A stretch of 48,683 bases of DNA from PVC group bacterium (GTDB taxonomy: Bacteria; Verrucomicrobiota; Verrucomicrobiia; Chthoniobacterales; SZAS-18): the NCBI GenBank assembly GCA_903642295.1, contig CAHJWO010000003.1, positions 1-48,683 on the forward strand. Direction: 5' to 3'. Both the position numbers and the translations under genes were made by a program. The notes beneath the pieces are model-generated. The model made no database searches. It saw nothing but the letters and a program-made list of their open reading frames with translations, and was not told the DNA's origin. Of the stretch, positions 5,988-44,795 are shown one piece after another. Position 1 is the first letter of the stretch. Each line of letters starts with the position of its first letter.

Positions 5988-6081
5988 CCAGCCCCGGCAG
6001 GGGCGGCAGAGTTTAGCCCGGGGCGTAAGCCCCGGGGAAAAGCGCCATTCGCCCGAAGCCCCGGCAGGGGCGTAAGAAAAA
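5988..6081. repeat. CCCCGGCAGGGGCG repeats downstream of glnII
   Basis: AGCCCCGGCAGGGGCG occurs at about 5990 and again near 6057, separated by GCCCGGGGCGTAAGCCCCGGG, itself an inverted repeat. Both copies are followed by GTAAG- or GCAGA-type sequence. A second pair lies at 10876-10965, downstream of the esterase gene. Each copy is palindromic and could form a stem in the transcript of the upstream gene. Confidence 0.65.
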
Positions 6082-7888: not shown

Positions 7889-8831
7889 TCACCGCTCCCT
7901 CGCTACTCCCCATCGTCTGCGCTGGCACGGCCACACGGATCGGGGCCGCGTCCGGCCCAACAACGAGGACGCCTTCCTCTGCCTGCAATTCGACGCGCAG
8001 GAAGTCCGCTACCTCGGCAAGATCGGCGACGCCTCCAGCGTCGGAAACGACCACGTTTTCGCGGTCAGCGACGGCATGGGCGGCGCGTCGGCGGGCGAGT
8101 TCGCCAGCCGCATCACGGTGGAGAAAGTCATGCGCATCATGCCGGGGGTCTTCAAGCAATCGGCGGTCGGGATCGAGGCGGGCTACGCCGACGTGCTGGA
8201 AGAACTCTTCGAGCAAATCCACCGGGCGCTGACCTTTGTCGGCTACTCCTACGAGGAAACCGCCGGGATGGGCGCGACGCTGAGCCTGTGCTGGTTCACC
8301 TCGGGTTGGATGTACTTCGCGCACATCGGCGACAGCCGCGTTTACTACCTGCCGGGGCGCGAGGGCGGCATCCGGCAGCTCACCCAGGACGACACCTACG
8401 TCGGTTGGCTCTACCGGCAGGGCAAGCTCAACGAGCGCGAGGCGCGCACCCACCCCCGGCGCAACGTGCTGCAAAAGGCACTCGGGGCGGGCAACCAGTA
8501 CGTCGATCCACAGGTGGGCGCGGTGGCCTGCGAGCCAGGCGACCGATTTCTGCTCTGCACGGACGGCTTGGTGGACGGCCTGTTCAACCAGCAACTCCTG
8601 GATTTCGCCACTCCCGAGGAAACAGACGGCGAAACCCGCAACGCCGCGCACCACCTCGTCGTCGCCGCCGTGGAACGCTCCGGGCGAGACAACACCACGG
8701 CGCTGCTGGTGGAGGTGCTGGCAGAAGAAGATGCAAGAGGCGGGATGCAGGATGCGGGATGCAGGATGCAGGATGCAGGATGCAGGATGCAGGATGAGAA
8801 CCCATCCATTAGCCCTTTTAGTCGCCGCTGA
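7875..8831 (+). CDS. PP2C-family serine/threonine protein phosphatase
   Basis: Metal-dependent phosphatase that removes phosphate from Ser/Thr residues. PP2C motifs are present in order: GRVRPNNEDAF (metal-binding Asp32), VSDGMGG (Asp66), GMGATLSLCWF, HIGDSRVYYL, LCTDGLVDGL and GRDNTTALLVEV. It lacks a membrane segment, so it is cytoplasmic. It overlaps the small kinase gene, suggesting a kinase-phosphatase switch. The catalytic domain ends at about residue 285. The last 35 or so residues are read from an array of GGATGCN heptamers (8742-8797) and give MQDAGCR repeats, probably not part of the fold. The MPPPDH start overlaps the kinase tail. Confidence 0.9.
   Translation: MPPPDHRSLATPHRLRWHGHTDRGRVRPNNEDAFLCLQFDAQEVRYLGKIGDASSVGNDHVFAVSDGMGGASAGEFASRITVEKVMRIMPGVFKQSAVGIEAGYADVLEELFEQIHRALTFVGYSYEETAGMGATLSLCWFTSGWMYFAHIGDSRVYYLPGREGGIRQLTQDDTYVGWLYRQGKLNEREARTHPRRNVLQKALGAGNQYVDPQVGAVACEPGDRFLLCTDGLVDGLFNQQLLDFATPEETDGETRNAAHHLVVAAVERSGRDNTTALLVEVLAEEDARGGMQDAGCRMQDAGCRMQDENPSISPFSRR
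8742..8797. repeat. GGATGCN heptamer array, eight units, forward
   Basis: Eight units, (A/G)GGATGC with the last ending GATGA, lie inside the 3' end of the PP2C gene. They are translated there as repeats of MQDAGCR, because three heptamers make seven codons. An inverted array of 13 units follows 47 bp later at 8845-8935, so the two could form a long imperfect stem. Confidence 0.85.
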
Positions 8832-8844
8832 ATTTTCTCTCCAC

Positions 8845-8935
8845 CTGCATCCCATATCCTGCATCCCGCATCCTGCATCCTGCCTCCTGCCTCCTGCCTC
8901 CTGCCTCCTGCCTCCCGCATCCTGCATCCTGCATC
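8845..8935. repeat. Inverted heptamer array of 13 units before tauE
   Basis: Thirteen units read ctgcatc, ccatatc, ctgcatc, ccgcatc, ctgcatc, five ctgcctc, ccgcatc and two ctgcatc. They are the reverse complement of the GGATGCN family and face the array at 8742-8797. TTTTT follows at once (8936-8940), so the long stem plus T run resembles an intrinsic terminator for the PP2C transcript. It ends 11 bp before the proposed tauE start. Confidence 0.85.
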
Positions 8936-11843: not shown

Positions 11844-11916
11844 GACAACCACCGCGCCCGGTGCATATTGTTCCCGACATTCCTGATACTCCGTGTTATA
11901 AACCCAGCCCCCTCCG

Positions 11917-11965
11917 ACTTCCCCCTCCCCACTTCCGCGTTCCGACTTCCCCCTTCCCACTTTGA
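11917..11965. repeat. Seven-unit heptamer block upstream of leuS
   Basis: Seven 7-nt units: acttccc, cctcccc, acttccg, cgttccg, acttccc, ccttccc and actttga. They lie 36 bp before the leuS start codon. The block belongs to the same family and has the same orientation relative to the gene as the blocks before ispF and cysS, so it would be transcribed as a C/U-rich leader. Confidence 0.75.
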
Positions 11966-15273: not shown

Positions 15274-15378
15274 GGAGGGGGTCCGAGGCCTGCCCTATCG
15301 CAGACGGCGACCCTTTTGGCGCGGCAGCCAGAAGGGCCTGCGGCCCAATGGGGACGGCCTCGGAGGCTTCCCTACCTT
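15268..15378. repeat. AGGTAGGGA palindromic element between convergent genes
   Basis: This 111-bp copy starts AGGTAGGGAGGGGGTCCGAG, inside which is the lipoprotein stop codon, and ends CTCGGAGGCTTCCCTACCTT. The pdeM-like gene running the other way stops with TGA at 15384-15386, 6 nt past the element. The centre has GGGCCTGCGGCCC followed by AATGGGGACGG, nearly identical to the copy at 46062-46121. Confidence 0.8.
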
Positions 15379-15383
15379 TACAC

Positions 15384-16583: not shown

Positions 16584-16701
16584 AGGATGCGGGATGCGGG
16601 ATGCGGGATGCAGAGGATGCAGAGGATGCAGAGGATGCAGGATGCAGGATGCAGGATGCAGGATGCAGGATGCAGGATGCAGGATGCGGGACGCGGGATG
16701 C
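16584..16701. repeat. GGATGCN array with a 9-nt variant, MOSC-fdhD gap
   Basis: About 15 units: one aggatgc, three gggatgc, three agaggatgc (9 nt), seven aggatgc, then gggacgc and gggatgc. It fills the space between the divergent MOSC and fdhD genes. All frames through it stay open and give MQDAGCR- or ASCILHP-type strings, so neighbouring genes are easily mis-extended through it. The rest of the gap (16702-16829) shows no recognised promoter. Confidence 0.85.
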
Positions 16702-16829
16702 GGGATAGTGCGGTTGGAGGTGAGCGAATGCTCGGCAGCCGTTTGCGTTGTTCCGGGCGATACTTTAATCTCGAACAGGTCGCTGGAATTGCGCTCGGCT
16801 TTTCAACGTCATCGATCCCCCCACGGTTT

Positions 16830-17774
16830 ATGGAACGCAGCGTCATCCGCAGCCTGATCGTCCGGGTCGAGGATTGCCAGCCCGGCGAACCACGCGAGGA
16901 TCTGCTCGCCGTCGAGGAACCGCTGGAAATCCAGCTTGGCTACGAGCGAAAGGGCTGGCGGGTCCATAAAAGCGTGTCGATCACCATGCGCACGCCCGGC
17001 TCGGACCGGGAACTCGCCGCCGGTTTTCTTTTCACCGAGGGCATCCTGACCGACGCCACCGAGATCGAGAACATCCGCGTTTCGGACGACGACGAGAACG
17101 TGGTCCGCGTGGAACTACGCGCGGGGGTGGCGGTGGATTTGCGCCGGTTGGAACGGCATTTCTACACGGCATCGAGTTGCGGCGTGTGCGGCAAGGCCTC
17201 CATCGCCGCGTTGAACCTCAACGGACGACAGCCGCGCCCCGCCCCCGGACCGGTGTTCGATGCCGCCGTCATTCACGGTCTGCCGGATGCCCTGCGCGCG
17301 ACGCAGGCCGTTTTCGACCAGACTGGTGGCCTCCATGCCGCCGCGCTTTTTGATGCGGTGGGTCGTCTCGATGGTTTGCGCGAGGATGTGGGCCGTCACA
17401 ACGCCGTGGATAAGGTGATCGGCGCGCAGCTTCTCGCGGGGAAGTCACTGCCGCTCAGCGAACGCGGGCTGTTCGTCAGTGGACGCGCCAGTTTCGAGCT
17501 GGTGCAAAAGGCGCTCGCCGCCGGGCTGCCGCTGCTGGCCGCCGTCGGCGCGCCGTCGAGCCTCGCGGTGGAACTGGCGCAAACCCACAGGATGACCCTG
17601 CTCGGGTTCGTGCGGAACGGGCGTTTTAACATCTACGCCGGTGAGCAACGCTTGAAGGAAGTGGGAACGCGGCACGCGGAAAGCGGAAATTCAGAGGAAA
17701 ATGAATCTCACATGCCACGTCTGCACGATTCCGTTCTCTCTGTGACGGGCAAGCTTTTGACCGTCGATTTCTGA
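16830..17774 (+). CDS. fdhD: Formate dehydrogenase accessory sulfurtransferase FdhD
   Basis: Transfers sulfur from IscS to the molybdenum bis-MGD cofactor, needed to activate formate dehydrogenases. The CxxC pair that carries the sulfur is Cys117 and Cys120 in TASSCGVCGKAS. Other family runs are REDLLAVEEPLEIQL, LAAGFLFTEGI, DVGRHNAVDKVIG, LFVSGRASFELVQKAL and FNIYAGEQRL. The family normally ends about there. The last 39 residues start in a five-unit heptamer block (17657-17691) and are probably a repeat-driven extension. The ATG at 16830 (MERSVIRS) is used, since the longer frame is translated heptamer array. The target enzyme is the next gene. Confidence 0.93.
   Translation: MERSVIRSLIVRVEDCQPGEPREDLLAVEEPLEIQLGYERKGWRVHKSVSITMRTPGSDRELAAGFLFTEGILTDATEIENIRVSDDDENVVRVELRAGVAVDLRRLERHFYTASSCGVCGKASIAALNLNGRQPRPAPGPVFDAAVIHGLPDALRATQAVFDQTGGLHAAALFDAVGRLDGLREDVGRHNAVDKVIGAQLLAGKSLPLSERGLFVSGRASFELVQKALAAGLPLLAAVGAPSSLAVELAQTHRMTLLGFVRNGRFNIYAGEQRLKEVGTRHAESGNSEENESHMPRLHDSVLSVTGKLLTVDF
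17657..17691. repeat. Five-unit heptamer block in the fdhD 3' end
   Basis: Units ggaagtg, ggaacgc, ggcacgc, ggaaagc and ggaaatt, 35 bp, lie at the point where conserved FdhD sequence stops. This is the forward orientation of the GGAAGTN family also seen after ispF. Confidence 0.7.
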
Positions 17775-38600: not shown

Positions 38601-39161
38601 ATGGAAAGCCGGGCGAAATCAGTGGTGTTGGGCGTGACCGGTTCGATTGCAGCGTACAAGGCGGCGGACATCGCCAGCCGGTTGACCAAGCTCGAACGGG
38701 AGGTGCAGGTCGTGATGACGAGAGAAGCCCGCGAATTCATCACGCCGCTGACGTTGCAGGTGTTGTCGAAGCGGCCCGTGGTGAGTGACCTGTTCGATGA
38801 AAAGGAAGGGTGGCAGCCGGGGCACATCGAGTTGGCGGATCGCGCGGATTTATTGCTCATCGCGCCCGCGACCGCGCAGATCGTGGCGGAGCTGGCGCAT
38901 GGGTTCGCCAGCCATGCGCTGGCAGCGATTGCGCTGGCGACACGCGCGCCCATTTTGCTGGCGCCCGCGATGAACGGCAAGATGTGGCTGCATCCGGCGA
39001 CATTGGAAAACGTGGAGGTCTTGAAGCGGCGGGGCGTGAAATTTATCGGGCCGGAGGAGGGGTTGCTCGCGTGCGGGTATGAGGGCGTCGGGCGGTTGTG
39101 GCCGGTGGACGGGATCGTGGAGGCGGCGGAGGGGATGTTGGCGGAGAAGGATGAAGGATGA
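38601..39161 (+). CDS. coaC: Phosphopantothenoylcysteine decarboxylase (separate CoaC)
   Basis: Flavin-dependent decarboxylase of coenzyme A synthesis, making 4'-phosphopantetheine. The protein of 186 residues opens VVLGVTGSIAAYKAADIASRL. The catalytic His is in QPGHIELADRADLLLIAPATA, FMN-site sequence is LAPAMNGKMW, and the substrate clamp is EGLLACGYEGVGRL. In most bacteria this is the N-terminal half of a fused CoaBC. Here the frame ends EKDEG within the first units of a heptamer array (stop TGA from aggatga), and the CoaB half starts 581 bp later as its own gene. Confidence 0.93.
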   Translation: MESRAKSVVLGVTGSIAAYKAADIASRLTKLEREVQVVMTREAREFITPLTLQVLSKRPVVSDLFDEKEGWQPGHIELADRADLLLIAPATAQIVAELAHGFASHALAAIALATRAPILLAPAMNGKMWLHPATLENVEVLKRRGVKFIGPEEGLLACGYEGVGRLWPVDGIVEAAEGMLAEKDEG

Positions 39162-39392
39162 AGGATGAAGGATGAAGGATGCGGGATGCGGGATGCTGGA
39201 TGCTGGATGCGGGATGCGGGATGCAGGATGCAGGATGCGGGATGCAGGATGCTGGATGCAGGATGCAGGATGCTGGATGCTGGATGCGGGATGCGGGATG
39301 CTGGATGCGGGATGCGGGATGCAGGATGCAGGATGCAGGATGCAGGATGCAGGATGCAGGATGCGGGATGCAGGATGCTGGATGCTGGATGC
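39148..39392. repeat. 35-unit GGATGCN heptamer array between coaC and coaB
   Basis: Exactly 35 units of 7 nt (245 bp). The first four are aggatga, and all later ones are NGGATGC with N = A, G or T, never C. The core GGATGC is invariant. The array overlaps the last four codons and stop of coaC. All three forward frames stay open in the GGATGC part and would read DAGCRMQ-type peptides. It has no spacers, so it is not a CRISPR array. No inverted partner is seen nearby, unlike the array at 8742-8935. Confidence 0.9.
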
Positions 39393-41833: not shown

Positions 41834-41929
41834 CGAAGTAGAAGGAAGTCGGAATTGATAATTCGATGCTCGCGGCAAAGAGAACGTAAGCGCCTTTACT
41901 TCCGACTTCCCACTTCCGACTTTTCTTTT
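41834..41929. repeat. Inverted heptamer blocks between the IMPase gene and ispF
   Basis: Beginning at the IMPase stop codon, gaagtagaaggaagtcggaa (41835-41854) gives the forward form. The inverted block acttccg, acttccc, acttccg, acttttc (41898-41925) ends 4 nt before the ispF ATG. About 40 bp separate them. Transcribed, the two sides could pair and close the region just before ispF. Confidence 0.75.
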
Positions 41930-42466: not shown

Positions 42467-42589
42467 GGAAATGGGAAGGCGGAAGGTGGAGGGCGGAAGT
42501 TTTGAAGAACTGATTTGCTTGCTGTGGCTGTCTTGGTCAATTTGGTTGTCTGACTTCCGCGTTCCGATTTCCCACTTTCGACTTTCTGC
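42467..42589. repeat. Mirror-image heptamer blocks filling the ispF-cysS gap
   Basis: Five forward units (ggaaatg, ggaaggc, ggaaggt, ggagggc, ggaagtt) run from 42467, the base after the ispF stop codon, to 42501. Five inverted units (acttccg, cgttccg, atttccc, actttcg, actttct) run from 42553 to 42587, 2 nt before the cysS ATG. The 51-bp middle is unique sequence. The gap is thus 35 + 51 + 35 + 2 bp. The arms can pair only imperfectly. Confidence 0.85.
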
Positions 42590-44682: not shown

Positions 44683-44795
44683 GAGGTAAGGACGCTGGGA
44701 CAGCCGTCCCGTTAGTTCTGATTTGGGAGGCGCTTGGGCAATGGGTGACGCGTATTCCGGACATCGACGGACGGCTGGGACAACCGTCCCTACCT
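44683..44795. repeat. AGGTAGGGA-type element between convergent genes
   Basis: The left part is aggtaaggacgctgggacag followed by ccgtccc, directly after the beta-helix gene stop. The right part is ggacggctgggacaaccg followed by tccctacctt. The rodA stop codon (TAG on the minus strand, 44790-44792) lies inside the right end. This is the third convergent gene pair in the window with this element between the stops. Confidence 0.8.

Follow-up and report, generated by a model that had tools for sequence, protein, structure and literature searches.

The ispF-cysS gap of a Chthoniobacterales-like Verrucomicrobia genome is almost wholly one copy of a dispersed family of heptamer inverted repeats

Short intergenic repeats are usually classed as microsatellites, REPs or terminators. 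Heptanucleotide repeats, the STRR family, are also known from cyanobacteria. The closest described system to the repeats reported here is that of the GGGAATC-type heptamers of Xanthomonas (Rehm et al. 2015, PMC4692102). The GGGAATC repeats of Xanthomonas and the GGGGAYT (GGGGA(C/T)T) repeats of Nostoc are intergenic, occur most often as four units and favour the vicinity of stop codons on the coding strand and of start codons on the non-coding strand; each Xanthomonas genome carries 70-75 convergent inverted heptamer pairs (Rehm et al. 2015, PMC4692102). The heptanucleotide repeats of Calothrix resemble the present family in being intergenic tandem heptamers with several families per genome (cited in PMC4692102), whereas the convergent paired arms and junction fit found here are not described in the limited literature consulted on them. 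The TAACTGA direct repeats of Beggiatoaceae, cyanobacteria and Bacteroidetes are also runs of few heptamer units within nucleotides of start codons; unlike the present family, they have one fixed unit, almost never form inverted pairs and build no hairpin that fills the space from stop to start (MacGregor 2015, PMC4679880). Finally, REPINs and REP doublets share with our elements a dispersed, extragenic and lineage-specific arrangement of inverted doublets that form hairpins, with a spacer that is less conserved or variable (Bertels and Rainey 2011, PMC3116915; Di Nocera et al. 2013, PMC3733652).

We analyzed a window of 48,683 nucleotides, which is contig 3 of a 4.38-Mb draft genome (an uncultured Chthoniobacterales-like Verrucomicrobia MAG rated 92% complete). 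The comparison of CysS revealed that its closest named relatives were uncultured Verrucomicrobia, chiefly soil Spartobacteria/Chthoniobacterales genomes. The gap between ispF and cysS (42467-42589) is almost wholly one copy of a dispersed heptamer inverted-repeat family. The left (GGAA) arm (42467-42501, + strand) starts with the base directly after the ispF TAA, as a preliminary description of this DNA had stated, and is composed of five heptamers (GGAAATG, GGAAGGC, GGAAGGT, GGAGGGC and GGAAGTT). The right (TTCC) arm (42552-42586, - strand) also contains five heptamers (GACTTCC, GCGTTCC, GATTTCC, CACTTTC and GACTTTC), three with an exact TTCC and two with TTTC, with 3 nt left between its end and the cysS ATG (42590). 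The central part (42502-42551) was unique, with no blastn-short match at 1e-3 in 1.68 Mb of its own genome. The sequence agreed with the preliminary description apart from small corrections: the centre measured 50 nt rather than 51, and the right arm stood 3 nt rather than 2 from the start codon. The arms, previously called mirror images, are inverted (reverse-complement) repeats capable of forming a hairpin and not mirror repeats. The RNA fold of the gap had a z of -3.3, and an Rfam search gave no match at the element.

The gap upstream of ispF (41834-41929) was found to hold a shorter second copy with the same layout and an RNA fold z of -2.65. Its left arm (41844-41865, +) is short and degenerate and lies 10 nt after the stop codon of an inositol-monophosphatase-like gene, and its right arm (41898-41922, -) lies 7 nt before the ispF ATG. 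A TTCC arm of seven units (11908-11962, -) was located upstream of leuS, approximately 38 nt from its likely ATG (12001), and does not abut that gene. Additionally, a single GGAA arm (1503-1539, -) was observed on the coding strand where an ABC ATPase gene ends, at the ABC-ATPase/MCE junction, and another GGAA arm (17657-17688, +) immediately after the FdhD domain, which ends at approximately 17655. Some arms enter coding sequence: the ABC ATPase stop codon (1501) is inside the arm and is supplied by its inner end (GGAAGTAA), and the fdhD ORF runs through its arm. This ORF continues to 17774, and its C-terminus is apparently lengthened by read-through of the arm (17657-17774). The further blocks listed in the preliminary description are real, with the extents corrected to those given here. 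The suggested link to translation and isoprenoid genes did not survive within the window, where copies also occur at the ABC-ATPase/MCE junction, at the end of fdhD and after the inositol-monophosphatase-like gene.

The family was surveyed in a sample of 1.68 Mb, or approximately 38% of the genome, consisting of the window and 100 stretches; 80 of these were complete or almost complete contigs taken without regard to repeats, and 20, mostly from larger contigs, were partly picked for hits. This choice slightly enriched the pair counts, while distances, orientation and unit order should be unaffected. In the 4.38-Mb genome, four successive GGAANNN units occurred 114 times, with overlapping matches in longer arrays counted separately, compared with approximately 0.001 expected from base composition by our own arithmetic. 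Intergenic chains of three, four and five exact GGAA units numbered 18, 34 and 8, whereas first-order Markov shuffles gave 1.0, 0 and 0, which bears out the large genome-wide excess of phase-locked heptamers that had been anticipated. Seven was also the commonest period of intergenic tandem repeats (47 rows versus 21 for period 9, the next). The block size, described earlier as a fixed 35 bp of five units, was indeed nearly constant, but its mode was four units and approximately 33 bp. Phase-locked heptamers with a mode of four are shared with Xanthomonas and Nostoc, as are convergent inverted pairs; within 260 bp, we found 31 convergent and no divergent arm pairs in the 1.68 Mb, plus two same-strand neighbours. 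In contrast to those repeats, the unit here is GGAAGTS/GGAACGC and not GGGANTN/GGGGAYT, G3 tracts are hardly present, and the host belongs to a different phylum.

The 31 arms anchored at GGAACGC or GGAATGC revealed a consensus of approximately 33 bp, AAAGTC-GGAAGTG-GGAAGTC-GGAACGC-GGAAGT, with sharp ends where conservation dropped on either side. In particular, the modal arm had four exact GGAA units and a leading AAAGTC half-unit, and GGAACGC was usually the second unit from the inner end. The reversed-sequence control for the arm scan was unclean: other heptamer arrays of the genome (AAGGATG and AAGGCAG) caused reversed DNA to score as well; Markov shuffles, unit order and pairing were therefore used as controls. 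The centres had a median length of 54 nt and no match elsewhere in the sampled genome, except for one that held a different nested repeat, and they were unalike even at loci sharing identical 25-bp arms. End-to-end pairing in tandem gaps with elements reached 15.5 bp versus 5.9 in shuffles. Partner arms of the same locus were no more complementary than arms of different loci within one family (21.9 versus 22.2, p 0.78), which suggests that arms are homogenised across the genome and not copied locally. Compensatory evolution at the level of single loci was also considered; arm complementarity seemed significant over all pairs, but this was gone within one family, and the idea was not retained.

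A simple in-house script supplied the gene starts, and for leuS it wrongly chose a TTG beside the arm; the starts were therefore re-called with ATG only, and distances to stop codons, which are unaffected, served as the main statistic. With these starts, 23 pairs lay between same-strand genes. In 19 of them, no more than 10 nt separated the stop codon from the beginning of the arm, where random placement in element-free gaps of 130 nt or longer would give 15% (p ~1e-12), and the spacer remaining outside the element was 20 nt or less in 16, compared with 19% of element-free tandem gaps (p 2e-7). The border fit of the arms is genuine, and the gene-border placement of the preliminary description is upheld together with the heptamer excess; the outcome that it had named as refuting it did not occur. 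Of the 859 tandem gaps, 37 contained arms, as did 11 of the 188 divergent gaps and 1 of the 185 convergent ones (p 0.006 for convergent versus divergent); convergent gaps are therefore avoided and divergent gaps are not, which is opposite to the preference in Xanthomonas. In most informative divergent gaps, one arm adjoined a start codon. For pairs, the rule of GGA after the stop and TCC before the start results from their convergent orientation, but 20 of 24 unpaired arms near a border also obeyed it, which is independent evidence for the rule. This placement, near stops on the coding strand and near starts on the non-coding strand, is as in Xanthomonas and Nostoc. Shine-Dalgarno-like motifs (GGAG, GAGG or AGGA, from -20 to -4) preceded 140 of the 1306 called starts of this genome (approximately 11%), which suggests little Shine-Dalgarno use.

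The exact arm consensus of this genome was absent from 37 related genomes. Two genomes of the same genus, G001 and G002, were compared at a median best-hit protein identity of approximately 70%. G002 had the same layout with GGAACGC/GGAACTC units and 11 pairs, all convergent, and the units of G001 were GGAAGGC. The ispF-cysS copy was absent from both, with a spacer of 65 nt in G001 and 33 nt in G002, the centre being compared with these spacers by inspection only; conversely, one G002 element was missing from the orthologous gap in this genome. As the presence of copies differs among genomes of one genus, the family turns over within the genus. The ispF-cysS spacer was resolved in 42 relatives; in 12 of these the two genes overlapped, by 1 or 4 nt, and in some others they were close together. 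Most of the ispF-cysS spacers of 82-124 nt in relatives held other inverted repeats (TGTCATGTCGAGCGAAGTCGAGG... and the family of the 8-mer GGAGTAAT), several of which close within approximately 10 nt of both borders, and spacers of 147-152 nt contained a related repeat with weaker predicted closure. In soil Verrucomicrobia (L057, L059, L087, L091, L093 and L095), the ispF-cysS spacer upstream of cysS was filled by a different inverted repeat, TGTCATGTCGAGCGAAGTCGAGGAATC ... GATGTCTCGACTNCGCTCGACATGACA.

Within the genome under study, tandem gaps that lacked GGAA arms but paired strongly from end to end showed a lag-7 identity of 0.47, compared with 0.29 in unpaired gaps, and by eye they included GGATGAA, GGATGCA and AAGATCC heptamers. 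Hairpins of these units, with the same architecture as the GGAA family, filled whole tandem gaps at L142 13754-13907, L148 1171-1278, L195 4710-4865, L165 12559-12747 and L043 6368-6531. The layout is therefore common to several heptamer families. Such multiple families with one layout, the ordered 33-bp arm and the unit swaps between same-genus species distinguish the present repeats from those of Xanthomonas and Nostoc.

Our best explanation, held tentatively and at somewhat under an even chance, is a lineage-specific dispersed family of intercistronic stem-loops, with arms of approximately 33 bp and four to five phase-locked heptamers, that enters tight junctions and is tolerated because it folds out. 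It builds on a family with a fixed ordered arm, convergent pairing, unrelated centres, junction fit, avoidance of convergent gaps and turnover within a genus. The copies at other genes, the changed heptamers of sister species, the missing ispF-cysS copy and the several heptamer families indicate neither a microsatellite nor a regulator specific to ispF and cysS. The elements would insert into tight or overlapping stop-start junctions, and, as almost no other spacer is then left, elements in tandem gaps would fit both borders. The paired arms may loop the insert out of the mRNA and hold stop and start near each other in space; translational coupling or re-initiation would then be little disturbed, and the insert would survive. 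Looping out would thus account for both the tolerance and the need for paired arms. Recombination, gene conversion or some copying process could keep the arms alike genome-wide, while the centre would drift or would never have belonged to the copied unit, and a locus-specific regulatory role would not be required. However, insertion into short spacers leaves the start-abutting elements of divergent gaps unexplained, and neutrality does not explain the avoidance of convergent gaps; together, these might indicate a connection with translation starts or 5' regions. The equal complementarity of partner and non-partner arms and the lack of a target-site duplication also weigh against this explanation.

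A non-autonomous mobile element similar to REPINs or MITEs, with single-stranded inverted arms recognised by a Y1/RAYT-like or other transposase, is possible but unlikely as an alternative. Species-specific, hairpin-forming inverted doublets dispersed outside genes are typical of REPINs, REP dimers with variable spacers are known, and the presence of copies differs between same-genus genomes. However, the arms are tandem heptamers and not palindromic GTAG-type REPs, whereas REPIN ends are GTAG/CGTC-tagged palindromes, and the centres share nothing alignable even next to identical 25-bp arms, whereas REPIN spacers are merely less conserved. The genome contains few Y1 genes (two Y1_Tnp matches over the cut-off and one below), none of them flanked by arms, and the best match (RAYT/IS200-like; L234, G000:C6:24557-24883) has an in-frame TAG. 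MITEs combine terminal inverted repeats with a target-site duplication, but around the present elements we found neither such a duplication nor an excess of shared flank words. We consider it improbable that the elements separate transcription units as intrinsic terminators working in both directions or as hairpins that protect 3' ends. Strong hairpins do adjoin stop codons, and just outside the TTCC arm, T prevails at the first base and pyrimidines beyond it. Intrinsic terminators, however, consist of a GC-rich hairpin and a U tract and occur in convergent gaps too, where they belong and where arms are nearly lacking (1 of 185); moreover, the T runs are short, the 50-nt loops are long, and the elements sit tightly before start codons, divergent gaps included.

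Arrays of binding sites beside start codons for an RNA-binding protein (CsrA, cold-shock or S1-type) that acts on translation initiation are very improbable. They would agree with arms adjoining starts and stops, with the strand rule of single arms (20 of 24), with the SD-like motifs at just 140 of 1306 starts, with the TAACTGA heptamers upstream of start codons in Beggiatoaceae and with the reported binding of cold-shock protein B at about one protein per heptamer. On the other hand, the unit sequence is not constant among sister species or among the families of a single genome, copies come and go within a genus, and the genome, rated 92% complete, has no match to CsrA (PF02599), which also separates the arms from a CsrA-binding sponge or leader. 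Expansion of a heptanucleotide microsatellite by slippage, with purifying selection purging it from genes, appears less probable again; the dominance of period 7 among intergenic tandem periods, the heptamer excess known in bacteria and the long homogeneous arrays of the same genome (AGGATGC x35, 39148-39392) are compatible with it. Simple sequence repeats nevertheless decay monotonically in unit number and have an arbitrary unit order, whereas here the mode is at four, an ordered arm with GGAACGC second from the inner end is common to tens of loci, and convergent pairing is obligate. The blocks are thus unlike ordinary microsatellites, as first noted; slippage is largely refuted for the GGAA arms, although it may apply to the long GGATGC arrays. 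The least probable reading is that of G-quadruplex elements, as proposed for the Xanthomonas and Nostoc heptamers. The architecture and four-unit mode match those of Rehm et al., and most arms have at least four GG tracts, but four G3 tracts were present in only 3 of 62 arms, the GGAAC units of G002 almost lack G3 tracts, and AATGACG and AAGCTCC arrays of similar copy number occur in relatives. As the four-unit mode is shared by units without G3 tracts, quadruplexes are arguably not its general reason, and the family weakens the quadruplex explanation for its Xanthomonas look-alike.

A fixed arm, an obligatory partner, an unrelated centre and a tight fit to coding borders coexist here with units that change between same-genus species, which makes these elements a concrete and countable example of how non-coding DNA at operon junctions evolves in concert. 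More speculatively, and with considerable doubt, these elements might belong to a general bacterial class of heptad-phased intercistronic hairpins, in which the unit would be free and lineage-specific, while period seven, approximately four units per arm, convergent pairing and stop/start abutment would be invariant. Such a class would bring together the cases from Verrucomicrobia, Xanthomonas, Nostoc and perhaps Beggiatoaceae and would imply a shared mechanism that, regardless of the intervening sequence, writes or copies arms of 30-35 bases at translation junctions.

Several other repeats were observed in this genome. The 35-copy AGGATGC array of the window (39148-39392) begins right around a stop codon, and further GGATGC/GATGCAG arrays are located at 8730-8935 and 16585-16706. 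Chains of GGAT units likewise have a mode of four but extend beyond 15 units. Other dispersed palindromic repeats (GGACGGCTGGGACAGCCGTCC; GGCCTCGGAGGC...; GGAGGTCGCCATC type) were found in the window at 44683-44789 and 15274-15383 and at L173 3927-4112, and one was nested in the centre of a heptamer element. Additionally, an Acido-Lenti-1 RNA (Rfam RF01687) was identified in the window at 5990-6036 on the - strand, with 49.5 bits, over the gathering score.
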